From positions 1 to 64,000 of the forward strand of contig CANRMA010000013.1 of the NCBI GenBank assembly GCA_947631625.1: a stretch of DNA of 64,000 nucleotides, written 5' to 3'. Both the position numbers and the translations under genes were made by a program. The stretch is from an uncultured Lachnospiraceae bacterium. GTDB taxonomy: Bacteria; Bacillota; Clostridia; Lachnospirales; Lachnospiraceae. Positions 24,519 through 50,176 of the stretch are shown here, one piece after another (within the stretch, counting starts at the first letter, position 1; each line of letters opens with the position of its first letter). Below the pieces are notes generated by a model. It ran no database searches. It saw nothing but the letters and a program-made list of their open reading frames with translations, and was not told the DNA's origin.

Positions 24519-25378
24519 GGCTTGTGGATATAGGAAAAAGCTATAAGGATAAGACGGCGGTAAAAGATATTAATGTTACGATAAAAAACGGTGTCTATGG
24601 CCTGCTTGGAGAAAACGGGGCGGGCAAGACCACGCTGCTTAGGATAATCTGCGGGATTTTAGAGCCGACCTGCGGGCAGGTTTTGTATGATAATACGGAA
24701 ATAGGGCTGTTGGGGGGGGACTATCGGAACATTCTGGGTTATCTGCCGCAGGATTTCGGATATTATGAAGACTTCAGCGCATACCGTTTTTTGCATTATA
24801 TGGCCGCGCTGAAAGCTGTGCCTGAAAATTATGCCAGAGAAAAGATTGAAGAGCTGCTTGAGCTTGTGGAGCTTAGCAATGTCAAAAATAAGAAGCTTAA
24901 GACTTTTTCCGGCGGTATGCTTAGAAGGGTAGGAATAGCGCAAGCGCTTTTAAATAATCCGGAGCTGCTTATAATGGACGAGCCGACGTCCGGTCTTGAT
25001 CCCAAGGAGAGAGTGCGTTTCAGAAATATCATAAGTTCGCTTGGTAAAAACCGCACAGTCATTCTTTCGACGCATATCGTGTCTGATGTGGAATATATCG
25101 CGGATAACATAATGATAATGAAAGACGGAAAACTAATAAAAATGGGCAGGGAGGCGGAGCTTTTAAAAGAAGCGGAGCGTTATGTCTGGAAATGCGCGGT
25201 TACGGAAAAAGAAGCTGATGAGCTTAGTAAAAAATATATAGTCAGCAATCTTAAAAACAAAAATGATAAGGTGGAGCTCAGGATAGTGTCTAAGGAAAAA
25301 CCTGTGGATGACGCGGTAAGCGCGGAGGCGGTGCTGGAAGACTTTTATCTGTACTGTGTGCAGAATGAGCAGAGGTGA
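24506..25378 (+). CDS. ABC transporter ATP-binding protein
   Basis: 290 residues. Walker A GENGAGKTT (about 36-44), Q-loop YLPQDFGYY, signature FSGGMLRRVGIAQAL, Walker B LLIMDEPTSGLD and the switch histidine in LSTHIVSDVEY. It resembles the bacitracin/lantibiotic export group (BcrA-like) ATPases. The start codon sits behind GGGGG within the previous gene. The C-terminal ~80 residues are an accessory region. It pairs with the permease at 25456. Confidence 0.93.
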   Translation: MHELRLVDIGKSYKDKTAVKDINVTIKNGVYGLLGENGAGKTTLLRIICGILEPTCGQVLYDNTEIGLLGGDYRNILGYLPQDFGYYEDFSAYRFLHYMAALKAVPENYAREKIEELLELVELSNVKNKKLKTFSGGMLRRVGIAQALLNNPELLIMDEPTSGLDPKERVRFRNIISSLGKNRTVILSTHIVSDVEYIADNIMIMKDGKLIKMGREAELLKEAERYVWKCAVTEKEADELSKKYIVSNLKNKNDKVELRIVSKEKPVDDAVSAEAVLEDFYLYCVQNEQR

Positions 25379-46214: not shown

Positions 46215-46310
46215 ATATGAATTGAAGATCCAAATTGAAGATCCAAATTGAAAATCCGAATTAAATATCCGAACTAAATATCCAAACTAAATATCCAAAT
46301 TAAATATCTT
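46215..46310. repeat. 13-bp tandem array
   Basis: About seven units drifting from GAAGATCCAAATT to AAATATCCAAACT, directly upstream of the surface-protein promoter. Confidence 0.85.
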
Positions 46311-46356: not shown

Positions 46357-46404
46357 AATATACAATCATTCATTTTATTAAAAAACAGGAAGGAGAATAT
46401 TATT

Positions 46405-49400
46405 ATGAAACAGATGAAAAGGTGGACGGCGCTGATGCTTGCGGCCTGCCTTGTTGTGGACGGAGGCGCCTTTAATGTATTGGCGGCCGAGAACAGCGCA
46501 GGGTATGTGCAGGAAGCGGATGAGCCTGCTTCGGAAAGCGGTGTCGAAAGCGGGGGGGGGCAGAGCTGAAAACGCGGAAAGCGAAACTAAGGCTAATGCT
46601 GACGACAGCGACACAACGCTTGAAGAAGACGGCGTAAGGAAAAGCGATACGGAAGAAACCGACGCAGAGGAAGCAGGTGCGGAAGAAGACGGCTCTTTTG
46701 ATGCTGTAGAAGAAAGCGCTCCCGATACGGAAGAAGATAATGCTTCGAACGTTGTAGAGGGAGAGATTTCAAATAATGAAGAAGATAATATCCCGGGAGC
46801 TGAAGAAGCTGATCCTGCCGAAACTACGGATAACGATGTTTTCGAGATCAGCGCGGAAGAACAGGATATGACCGTTGATGAGCTCATGGCGCTGCCGGTT
46901 GAGGACAGGCTTGCGCAAATGAGTTCGGATGATGAAATCGCCAGCGGGACTTATGGTGATGTTGCGTGGGTTATTGATGCTTCCGGTAAGCTGACGGTTA
47001 ATGGCACGTGGCCAAATCCTACTAATACGAATATGCCGTGGGTTTCTAAGAGAGATTCTATCATATCCGCAGAAATTAATCTTAGCGGTTTGAAAAATGC
47101 AGGTGGAATGTTTAATTCTTACAGCAACCTGAAAAGTTTGGATCTAAGCGGTTTTGATACATCTGAAGTAACCTGGATGGGCGGTATGTTTTCAGGCTGT
47201 ACCAGTCTTACGGATATTGATTTGAGCGGCAGCTTTAACACATCAAAAGTAGAAAACATGAACGGTATGTTCGAAAAGTGCAGCAGCTTGGAAAGTCTGG
47301 ATCTGAGCAGCTTTGATGTGTCGAAAGTGGAAAATATGCAGATGATGTTCTATTGTTGTGCTGCTCTTACAGATATTGATTTAAGCAGTTTTGGTAAATC
47401 AAACGTAAAGGATATTAGGTATATGTTCGCCGGGTGCAGCAGCTTAAAAAGTCTGGATCTAAGCAGCTTTGATGTGTCGAAAGTGGAAATTATGTGGGGT
47501 ATGTTCAATGGATGCACAGCTCTTACAGAGATTAAATTAGGCGACTTTGATACCTCGAATGTAACTGGTATGAGCAGAATGTTTGCTGGTTGCGAAAACC
47601 TTGCCAGTCTGGATGTAAGCGGCTTTAATACATCAAAAGTAACGAGTATGAGCGGCATGTTTTCTGGGTGCAAAAACCTTGCCGGTCTGGATGTAAGCGG
47701 CTTTGATACCTCGAATGTAATTACTATGCAAAACATGTTTAATAGTTGCGAAAACCTTGCCAATCTGGATGTAAGCGGCTTTAAAACATCTAATGTAACG
47801 AATATGTCCGGAATGTTTTCTGGGTGCGAAAACCTTGCCGGTCTGGACGTAAGCGGCTTTGATACCTCGAAAGTAACGGATATGAATCATATGTTCGAGT
47901 CTTGTAGAAACCTTAAGGAACTTGATGTAAGCCATTTTGATACGTCGAATGTAACAGACATGAGTTATATGTTTGATGGATGCAAAAACTTTGCCAGTCT
48001 GGATGTAAGCGGCTTTAAAACATCGAAGGTAACAAACATGAATGATATGTTTTCTCAGTGCGAAAACCTTGTCAGTCTGGATGTAAGCGGCTTTGATACC
48101 TCGAATGTAACTACTATGCAAGGCATGTTTGGTTATTGCTACAATCTAAGCAGTCTGGATCTGAGCAGCTTTGATGCGTCTAATGCAAGAATGGGACATA
48201 TATTTATGTACAGTAACAACCTTAAAGTAATCAATACTCCAAAGAATGTTAAAGAATCGGTTGAACTGCCCGAAGGAACGTGGCTTATGCCCGACGGTAA
48301 AGAGATTAATGAACTTCCGATGAACAATAGCGAAAGTATAACGATAACCAGGAAAGACAGCGGCAGCGGCGGAACCGGAGGCGGCAGTACAGATAATCCC
48401 GGCGGCGGAACCGGAGACAGCGGCGGTACGGACAATCCCGGCGGCGGTTCGGGAGACAGCGGTGAAACAGACACCCCCGGCGGCGGTTCGGGAGGCAGCG
48501 GTGAAACGGATAAACCCGAAAATACGGAAGGCCTCAAGTTCGGTTTTGTAAGCAGCGACGGCAGCCTTACGGATAAGGTAACTTATATCTACACCGGAAA
48601 CGCCATAACCCCTGCCGTATCGGTGACCAACAACGGCGAAACCCTTGTGGAAGGTACCGATTATACGGTCAAATATTCAAACAATATCAAAGTGACTGAG
48701 AGCGCACAAGTCACCATAAGCGGCAAAGGCAACCTGTCCGGCAAAAACCGGTCTCTTACATTTACAATTAAGGCAAAGAAGCTCGATAACTCCGATATAT
48801 CAACAGATGATAAAACCGCGCCCGCGGTTGAAGTCGATACCGTAACGGTGGCAGAGGGCGCCAAAGCCTCTCCGGTCATCACATATAACGGAGTACAGCT
48901 TAAAAATAACAAGGACTTTACCCTTTCCGATAACGATAAGAACCATAAGTGGTCTCTTAATGAAAGCAATCCGACCATAACAGTCACAGGCAAGGGGAAT
49001 TTTGAAGGAACCACAACGCTTAAGGTTGTCGTGATATCCAAAGCGCAGCAGAAGAATGTCAAGATCAAAGCCGACATAACCAAAGGCTTCAAAGGCTATA
49101 CATATGACGGAACGCCCAAGTATCTTGAGAAAAACTTAAGCGTATATACGGCGCAGACTCAGGCAGGACAGGCAGAACAGCTTAAAAAAGACACTGATTA
49201 TGTCATATCCTATCCTTCGGATATCACAAGTGCGGGAACCAAGAAGATAATCATTACGGGAATAAGCGAAAGATGCATGGGAAGCGTCACCAAGTCCTAC
49301 AAGATCACTCCCAATAAAGCCGTTCTTACGGTTGAATATGATAAAGATAACAAAGGTTATGCTTATGTAAGGACGGGAACGAAAGTAGACGACCTTGTAG

Positions 49401-50176
49401 TAAAAGTTGGAAATACCGTATTAACGGAAGGAAAAGACTACAAGGTAACGTACAGCGGCAACAAGAATGTAGGAAGCAAGGCCAAATTCACCGTAACGGG
49501 CATCGGAAACTACAAAGGCAGCAAAGCAGCCAATAACAAATTTACAATAAATGCAGTGGTACTGAACAATAATAAGAACAGCGGATCGACAGAAGGGCTT
49601 AAGATAATCTCCAAAGACATGGTATTTAAAAAAGCGGGCGTCTATAAATCTGCGCCATATGTGGATCTTGACGGAGTGACGCTCAAGAGATCTGACTATA
49701 CGGTCAGCTACTACCTTGACGATCCGCGGGATAACCCGAGTCCCAGGGTGATGGATAGTCATAATAAGGTGACAGCAGGAGACACCACCGTATGGGTGAA
49801 AGTAGTCGGGAAAGGCAATTACAAGAGTGATGATAACACCTGTTATGCAGTAGGTTCATATAAGGTCTGCGCTAAACCGGACACAGGAATTGACCTGTCC
49901 AAAGCCAAGATAAGCTTTAAGGACAGTAAGGGAACAGCCATAAAGAAGACAGAGTACACCGGAAATCCTATAGACGGCGACAACATCAAAGTGGAAGTGA
50001 CCTGTAAGGTAAACGGTCAGAACAAAGTATTGGAAGAGAATAAAGATTACACGGTAGAATTTGTCAACAACGTAAACAAAGGCAAGGCGACAGTGATAAT
50101 CAAGGGCGCCGAAGGTCAGACAGCCTATGTAGGCAGCAAGACGGCCACTTTCAGCATAGTTGCCAGGAAACTATAA
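46405..50176 (+). CDS. large secreted BspA-like repeat protein, frame broken at a G9 tract
   Basis: Starts at ATG 46405 behind AGGAAGGAG. Residues 1-28 are a Sec signal peptide (MKQMKRWTALMLAAC start, cleavage near VLAA). At 46552-46560 nine G residues push the frame into a TGA six codons later; with eight G the reading continues for a ~1,256-residue protein. Downstream, in the shifted frame: a Glu/Asp/Ala-rich stretch, about 14 BspA/DUF285 repeats of 26 residues (MFSGC, then LDVSGF, DTSNVT), a Gly/Ser/Asp/Pro linker and several MBG/Ig-like modules (ITPAVSV, YTVKYSNN; FTIKAKKL). No LPXTG or clear anchor. Likely a cell-surface adhesin whose expression depends on the G count. Confidence 0.88.
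46552..46560 (+). promoter_or_regulatory. G9 homopolymer, candidate phase-variation switch
   Basis: Nine G inside the coding sequence 49 codons after the start. With nine the product stops after GGGQS; with eight it enters the long open frame (GGGRAENAE). Poly-G tracts of this size are the classical substrate for slipped-strand phase variation. A sequencing or assembly error is possible. Confidence 0.75.
47110..48230 (+). repeat. 78-bp coding repeats of the BspA-like protein
   Basis: About 14 copies of a 26-codon unit. Copies 7-13 (about 47579-48130) are nearly identical at DNA level around AACCTTGCCAGTCTGGATG; outer copies are more diverged. This internal homogeneity implies recent duplication or conversion. 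Confidence 0.85.

Follow-up and report, generated by a model that had tools for sequence, protein, structure and literature searches.

Organization of the locus

The DNA analysed here, referred to as the window, is a 64,000-nucleotide stretch from an uncultured Lachnospiraceae bacterium (assembly GCA_947631625.1, contig CANRMA010000013.1, positions 1 to 64,000 of the forward strand). The gene under study occupies positions 46405 to 50176, and consists of a short signal-peptide frame and a long frame for a leucine-rich repeat (LRR) protein, with a tract of G between them. A ribosome-binding site (AAGGAG, 46390–46395, + strand, by direct reading) precedes the ATG at 46405, which opens a frame of 54 codons (46405–46569, + strand) that ends with the TGA at 46567–46569, and the same frame is present in a paralog of the same genome, the C19 paralog. 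The beginning of the translation is a signal-peptide-like segment (MKQMKRW...VLAA; 46405–46488, + strand, assigned by eye). Just before the stop codon, nine G (46552–46560, + strand) mark the register change between the two frames, and form the proposed slippage switch. The long frame, which spans 46439–50176 in the list of open reading frames, is in a different register from the signal-peptide frame, and 1,204 of its codons lie 3' of the tract. A homopolymer tract in the 5' coding part and a register change across it are thus both present. The initial annotation had described a signal peptide and ribosome site starting a frame that is halted after nine G, followed by an out-of-register open frame of about 1,200 codons, and the reading of the sequence agrees with it on both points.

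The downstream frame (46562–50176, + strand, 1,204 codons plus stop) encodes an acidic linker, 14 PARCEL/DUF285 leucine-rich repeats with a period of 26 residues (47050–48210, + strand, with approximate edges, from profile matches and phmmer), a Gly/Pro-rich linker derived from a 39-bp tandem repeat (48366–48518, + strand, Tandem Repeats Finder), and C-terminal modules (48521–50173, + strand) which, by sequence matches, recur in further long frames of the secreted type within the genus. On the 5' side of the gene, Tandem Repeats Finder detects a 13-bp tandem repeat, AATTAAATATCCA, in 6.8 copies (46220–46308, no strand assigned). A simple text match counts seven units of this repeat 5' of the window gene versus two 5' of the C19 paralog, and the repeat is a possible second variable element. 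No promoter was assigned to the gene because a promoter scan of the region returned nine sites versus a mean of 8.5 in shuffled sequences, which is no excess.

Repeats and domains of the encoded protein

The repeat region contains 14 cores spaced by 26 residues (27 in one case). It matches the NCBIfam model TIGR02167, "PARCEL repeat-containing surface protein", in 13 stretches with 405.1 bits (cut-off 30; E 9e-125), and the Pfam model DUF285 with 275.2 bits (cut-off 25; E 5e-83). The match to LRR_5, the BspA type, is weaker than that to DUF285, yet lies above the cut-off (77.8 bits, cut-off 27.7; E 9e-22). Classical BspA-type LRR repeats have a period of 23 residues, which is not the period found here. 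Because the TIGR02167 and DUF285 matches are stronger than that of LRR_5, PARCEL/TIGR02167 is, judged by profile scores, the exact name of the repeats. Of the 14 BspA repeats that had been proposed, the number stands, and "BspA-like" holds in a broad sense, but the classical BspA assignment does not. The repeats also match LRR proteins of solved structure in phmmer searches, the best being 4gt6 (E 4e-9).

The C-terminal modules had been described as Ig-like, an assignment that we could not confirm: the best Pfam match in the region, CBM_X2, falls under the cut-off, the sole match to a solved structure has an E value of 0.35, and no confident Pfam or solved-structure match was obtained for 48521–50173. 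The modules are 84% identical in the C19 paralog, 62% in genome G027 and 61% in genome G026. Inspection by eye showed neither a cell-wall anchor nor a membrane helix at the C-terminus, while the signal-peptide-like N-terminus, likewise recognized by eye, lies in the other frame. The protein may act as an adhesin and bind a partner.

The tract in paralogs and homologs

The C19 paralog has the same signal peptide, nine G, and then an offset frame of 1,910 codons, with 30 TIGR02167 stretches. Ratios of nonsynonymous (dN) to synonymous (dS) substitution between the two genes are 0.42 in the signal-peptide piece (49 codons, only 13 differences), 0.45 in the linker (107 codons) and 0.40 in the C-terminus (559 codons). 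These values indicate that purifying selection acts on both sides of the tract, which supports a switch. In a third PARCEL gene of this genome (C9), a single frame covers signal peptide and body, and there is no tract.

Among 77 genomes of the genus, 52, including that of the window, match the long frame. We inspected 25 long frames, 22 of which came from 20 homolog stretches taken mostly from the top of the match listing rather than at random; some of these homologs match mainly via the C-terminal modules. The 5' end is visible in 24. One homolog (L135), whose 5' end is off the contig, was dropped from the count, and a second long frame in another stretch (L144) is a different gene and was not counted. 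In 18 of the 24, the signal peptide reads straight into the body (by eye), and the interval between 300 bases 5' and 900 bases 3' of the start of the open frame contains no tract of at least six G. Because they form one frame in these homologs, signal peptide and body belong together. The remaining six carry a tract, four in the coding part, the window gene and the C19 paralog among them, and two in a promoter spacer. Apparent orthologs in G034 and G035 encode a signal peptide and acidic linker, then nine G, then an offset frame, so that the site differs from that of the window gene. In G050 (C10) and G044 (C1), ten G lie within the 19-base spacer between TTGACA and TAGAAT or TATAAT. Two further PARCEL-type matches, assigned by position only, have nine G with a -10-like box on their 5' side (G044 C43:29167 and G075 C52:5016).

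A comparison of G034 with G035 over 1,859 codons of the downstream frame, with a single gap, gives a dS of 0.137 and a dN of 0.025 (dN/dS 0.18). Both genes are out of register in the assemblies while the downstream frame is constrained, a combination difficult to account for if the product were never made. Beyond the genus sample, a scan of genome contigs for relatives returned one distant match only (27% identity), and matches in 87 records of a plasmid collection were all below 60% identity and from other genera.

Poly-G tracts in the genome and the genus

The genome that holds the window (G000; 2.67 Mb, 30 contigs, 81% complete) contains 40 G8 starts and 12 G9 starts, which correspond to 28 tracts of at least eight G, ten of which reach nine or ten. 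The 12 G9 starts exceed the number predicted by Markov models trained on the window, which is 5.1 at first order and 0.5–1.1 at second to fourth order. The 28 tracts were sorted into classes by hand. The ten longer tracts comprise five frame breaks, three leaders, one promoter spacer and one intergenic case, and none lies in an uninterrupted frame. The frame breaks are in the window gene, the C19 paralog, an NAD-dependent epimerase, and two frames with sub-threshold methyltransferase and radical-SAM matches. The leader tracts lie 9 to 32 bases 5' of the likely starts of a flagellin, a signal-peptide protein with a transglutaminase domain, and a prepilin peptidase, and the spacer tract lies within TTGACA-19-TATAAT, 5' of a signal-peptide protein. 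The 18 G8 tracts differ: for 15 of them the G strand carries an uninterrupted frame across the tract (versus 0 of 10 longer tracts; Fisher p 2e-5), and for one more the other strand does. One G8 tract (L023), scored "none" by the script, was counted in frame because it lies within one open acyltransferase frame. Several G8 genes are of the secreted type, with the tract 3' of the signal peptide (subtilase, RCC1 repeats, pectate lyase, GDSL hydrolase, solute-binding lipoprotein); all are in frame, and we make no claim of switching for them.

Two local observations concern the same genome. A G8 tract of the window (24712–24719) lies within an uninterrupted ABC-transporter ATPase frame. Four G8 or G9 tracts occur in about 18 kb of contig C2 (15995, 27836, 33150 and 34228), in a cluster that includes a NeuC-type UDP-GlcNAc 2-epimerase (in frame), the NAD-dependent epimerase (frame break) and the frame with the sub-threshold methyltransferase match (frame break).

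The genus sample was set against 297 genomes from the family's other genera, with base composition not matched. A family of at least 298 genera, together with the gene types present, points towards Lachnospiraceae. The median number of G9 starts per genome is 25 in the genus, and by hand count 56 of the 77 genomes have at least 12, versus 33 of 297 in the other genera, where 115 of 297 have none. Four genomes of the genus (G021, G027, G040 and G042) have no G9 starts, and three from three other genera (G221, G223 and G271) have 149, 112 and 117, which makes the trait patchy; in the other genera, some of the G runs are within 100 bases of a contig end and may be artefacts. As a control for composition, G9 starts were compared with G4HG4 starts. 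The median of their ratio across the genus is 0.71 (the genome of the window has 12 and 10), whereas a middle base chosen according to composition would, by arithmetic, give roughly 0.25–0.3.

Promoter-like placement was assessed with two patterns. TTGACA-N(3-8)-G8-N(2-8)-TATAAT has six matches in 6 of the 77 genomes, with none in the reversed control; a secreted or lipoprotein-like frame follows just 3' of five of these loci (by eye), and the sixth locus is cut short. The shorter pattern G9TAWAAT has 93 matches (hand count) in 47 of the 77 genomes, again with none in the reversed control. Among the 30 of these loci that were inspected, five have an exact TTGACA 16 or 19 bases 5' of the -10-like box, and at least seven precede a signal-peptide protein. 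Three are probably the leaders of flagellin genes, with TAAAATG serving as the start and not as a -10 box; this reading was seen at one locus and extended to two by the same downstream frame. All 24 tracts of at least nine G in G001 and G003 are a mix of promoter-like sites, leaders, frame breaks and in-frame cases. In the genome of the window and across the genus, tracts are thus found at regulatory or junction sites more often than chance predicts.

Ten G stand just 5' of the flagellin start in three species (G000 C3:62843-62852, L064; G001 C17:52226, L149; G003 C1:20412, L154). The gene in G000 is confirmed by Pfam Flagellin_N, and those in G001 and G003 were named by eye. This stretch of G may serve as the ribosome-binding site or influence it. 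A further group of five tracts of nine or ten G was found in 16 kb of G003 (C54:213122-228837, L165).

Proposed phase variation and alternative explanations

The anatomy of the locus, the same gate in the paralog, the gates in homologs and the selection on both frames are direct observations. The initial annotation had proposed phase variation by slippage at the G tract, and this proposal gains support from the gate of the paralog, the differently placed gate in two other species, the selection on both sides of the tract, and the pattern of tracts in the genome and genus. On the sequences compared here, the gene is probably phase-variable. The tract, which separates the signal peptide from the body of a secreted PARCEL (DUF285/BspA-like) LRR protein, would act as a translational contingency locus. 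Slippage of DNA polymerase during replication would alter its length, and only one of the three length classes would keep both frames in register. Cells would then flip at random between the full secreted protein and a 54-residue stub, and the assembled consensus would correspond to an unproductive (OFF) class. We infer slippage and its rate, export of the product and any binding role from this arrangement.

The phenomenon is wider than the window gene. We lean, by a narrow measure, towards the view that this gene is one locus of a genus-wide set of poly-G switches, or phasome, in what is presumed to be a commensal gut clostridial genus. Such a phasome would use three architectures: a coding-frame gate between signal peptide and protein body, a promoter-spacer gate directly 5' of the -10 box, and a leader gate at the start of flagellin and surface-protein genes.

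Several observations weigh against these interpretations. Tract lengths are assembly consensus from one genome per species. Most of the sampled homologs (18 of 24) do without a tract, and the upstream frame of G034 and G035 is weakly constrained (dN/dS 0.67, 170 codons). The four PARCEL genes with a coding gate are without exception out of frame, each at a length of exactly nine G. Among frame-break tracts with coding signal on both sides, nine of ten fall in one of the two out-of-frame classes, a count that includes two pairs of related genes, and such a bias is not predicted by random slippage alone; slippage that is biased or programmed, or a systematic error of assembly, could produce it. 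As for the promoter-like sites, at 25 of the 30 inspected G9TAWAAT loci the -35 box departs from TTGACA at two or more positions, and six have no downstream frame by the rules of the script. The 93 matches are not all promoters, nor are they all independent, because loci of different species may have been inherited from a common ancestor.

The first alternative is an error of sequencing or assembly at the homopolymer, in which case the true length would keep one frame and the gene would simply be on. The assembly is 81% complete, in 30 contigs and with no read type given; in a study of Bifidobacterium breve, the length deposited for one G tract did not match the length most common in cells (PMC9187656); and a systematic error could place nine of ten frame breaks in one class. 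However, the same kind of break is found in the paralog and in the assemblies of two other species, and a mistaken length leaves the placement of tracts unexplained, both the 93 versus 0 matches of G9TAWAAT and the absence of the longer tracts from uninterrupted frames. Moreover, with a wrong assembled length the site would remain prone to slippage, and only the OFF call would fall. We consider this explanation unlikely.

A second, less probable alternative is programmed transcriptional slippage or ribosomal frameshifting at the tract, which would keep the gene always on at a low level. It would account for the shared length and offset class of the four gated PARCEL genes, and for the conservation of a downstream frame that is untranslated in the simple reading. 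Not all tracts share this behaviour, however, as one (L163) is in the other out-of-frame class and two (L158 and L165) have one frame across nine or ten G. Promoter-spacer tracts cannot operate in this manner, and strong RNA-level slippage is known mainly from A/T runs, which further counts against it.

The last alternative, a dead gene in which a chance G run caught a frameshift and left a relic downstream, agrees with the broken frame of the assembly but was rejected as highly improbable, since the downstream frame is under purifying selection in two species that are both out of frame (dN/dS 0.18), 1,204 and 1,910 codons remain open after the tract in the window gene and the C19 paralog, and neutrality at a dS of 0.137 predicts roughly 26 stops (5,577 sites x 0.137 x 0.034) where none is seen, an argument to be read with the fact that the search sought long open frames and so favoured open ones.

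Comparison with known systems

A larger lead than the window gene itself is the genus-wide set of poly-G switches that the data suggest. If this is true, a genus presumed not to be known for disease would carry tens of slippage switches in many genomes, with gates placed at different sites in homologous surface proteins. The gating of one surface-protein family in different ways within one genus bears on the origin of such switches. Should the lengths vary in cells and the genus be non-pathogenic, as presumed, it would constitute a large counter-example across many species. Among the papers listed by a literature search, none was seen on poly-G switches in Lachnospiraceae.

In Campylobacter, tract targets include surface and flagellar glycan genes. 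The Campylobacter poly-G phasome comprises many poly-G/C tracts per genome (PMC6321876, PMC4965091), including 29 loci of seven or more G/C in C. jejuni NCTC11168 (PMC4965091). That lineage is unrelated, and in the present genus some tracts lie in promoter-like spacers and before flagellin starts. Homopolymers across prokaryotes have been surveyed (PMC2831843).

A second comparison is with Bifidobacterium breve, which belongs to a different phylum. Its sortase-pilus genes have a measured G-tract switch, and further tracts in promoter spacers are mentioned (PMC9187656). As in the window gene, an intragenic G tract stands between two out-of-register parts of a surface gene in a Gram-positive gut commensal. 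The proteins there are pili and not PARCEL proteins, two loci were studied, and slippage was measured.

The nearest counterparts in protein family are found in mycoplasmas. In Candidatus Mycoplasma girerdii, BspA-like genes contain simple repeats of variable length, with variants in reads, and a number of the affected genes are predicted to be OFF in the consensus (PMC5476646). The repeats there are mostly dinucleotides and their variation is shown in reads, whereas the present case concerns a G tract seen in assemblies alone. For PARCEL lipoproteins of Mycoplasma agalactiae (MAG1330, MAG3260), phase-variable expression by frameshift has been proposed, and some of the others, in M. capricolum, have homopolymer or dinucleotide contingency loci in their 5' flanking sequence (PMC2996958). 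These proteins share with the window gene the PARCEL/DUF285/TIGR02167 repeats and the frameshift proposal. They are, however, lipoproteins of Mollicutes, while the window gene encodes a signal-peptide protein of a probably clostridial genus, with C-terminal modules of its own, and has relatives with the gate in a promoter spacer. Since slippage switching of PARCEL/BspA-like genes has been described or proposed in mycoplasmas, the window gene joins a known kind.
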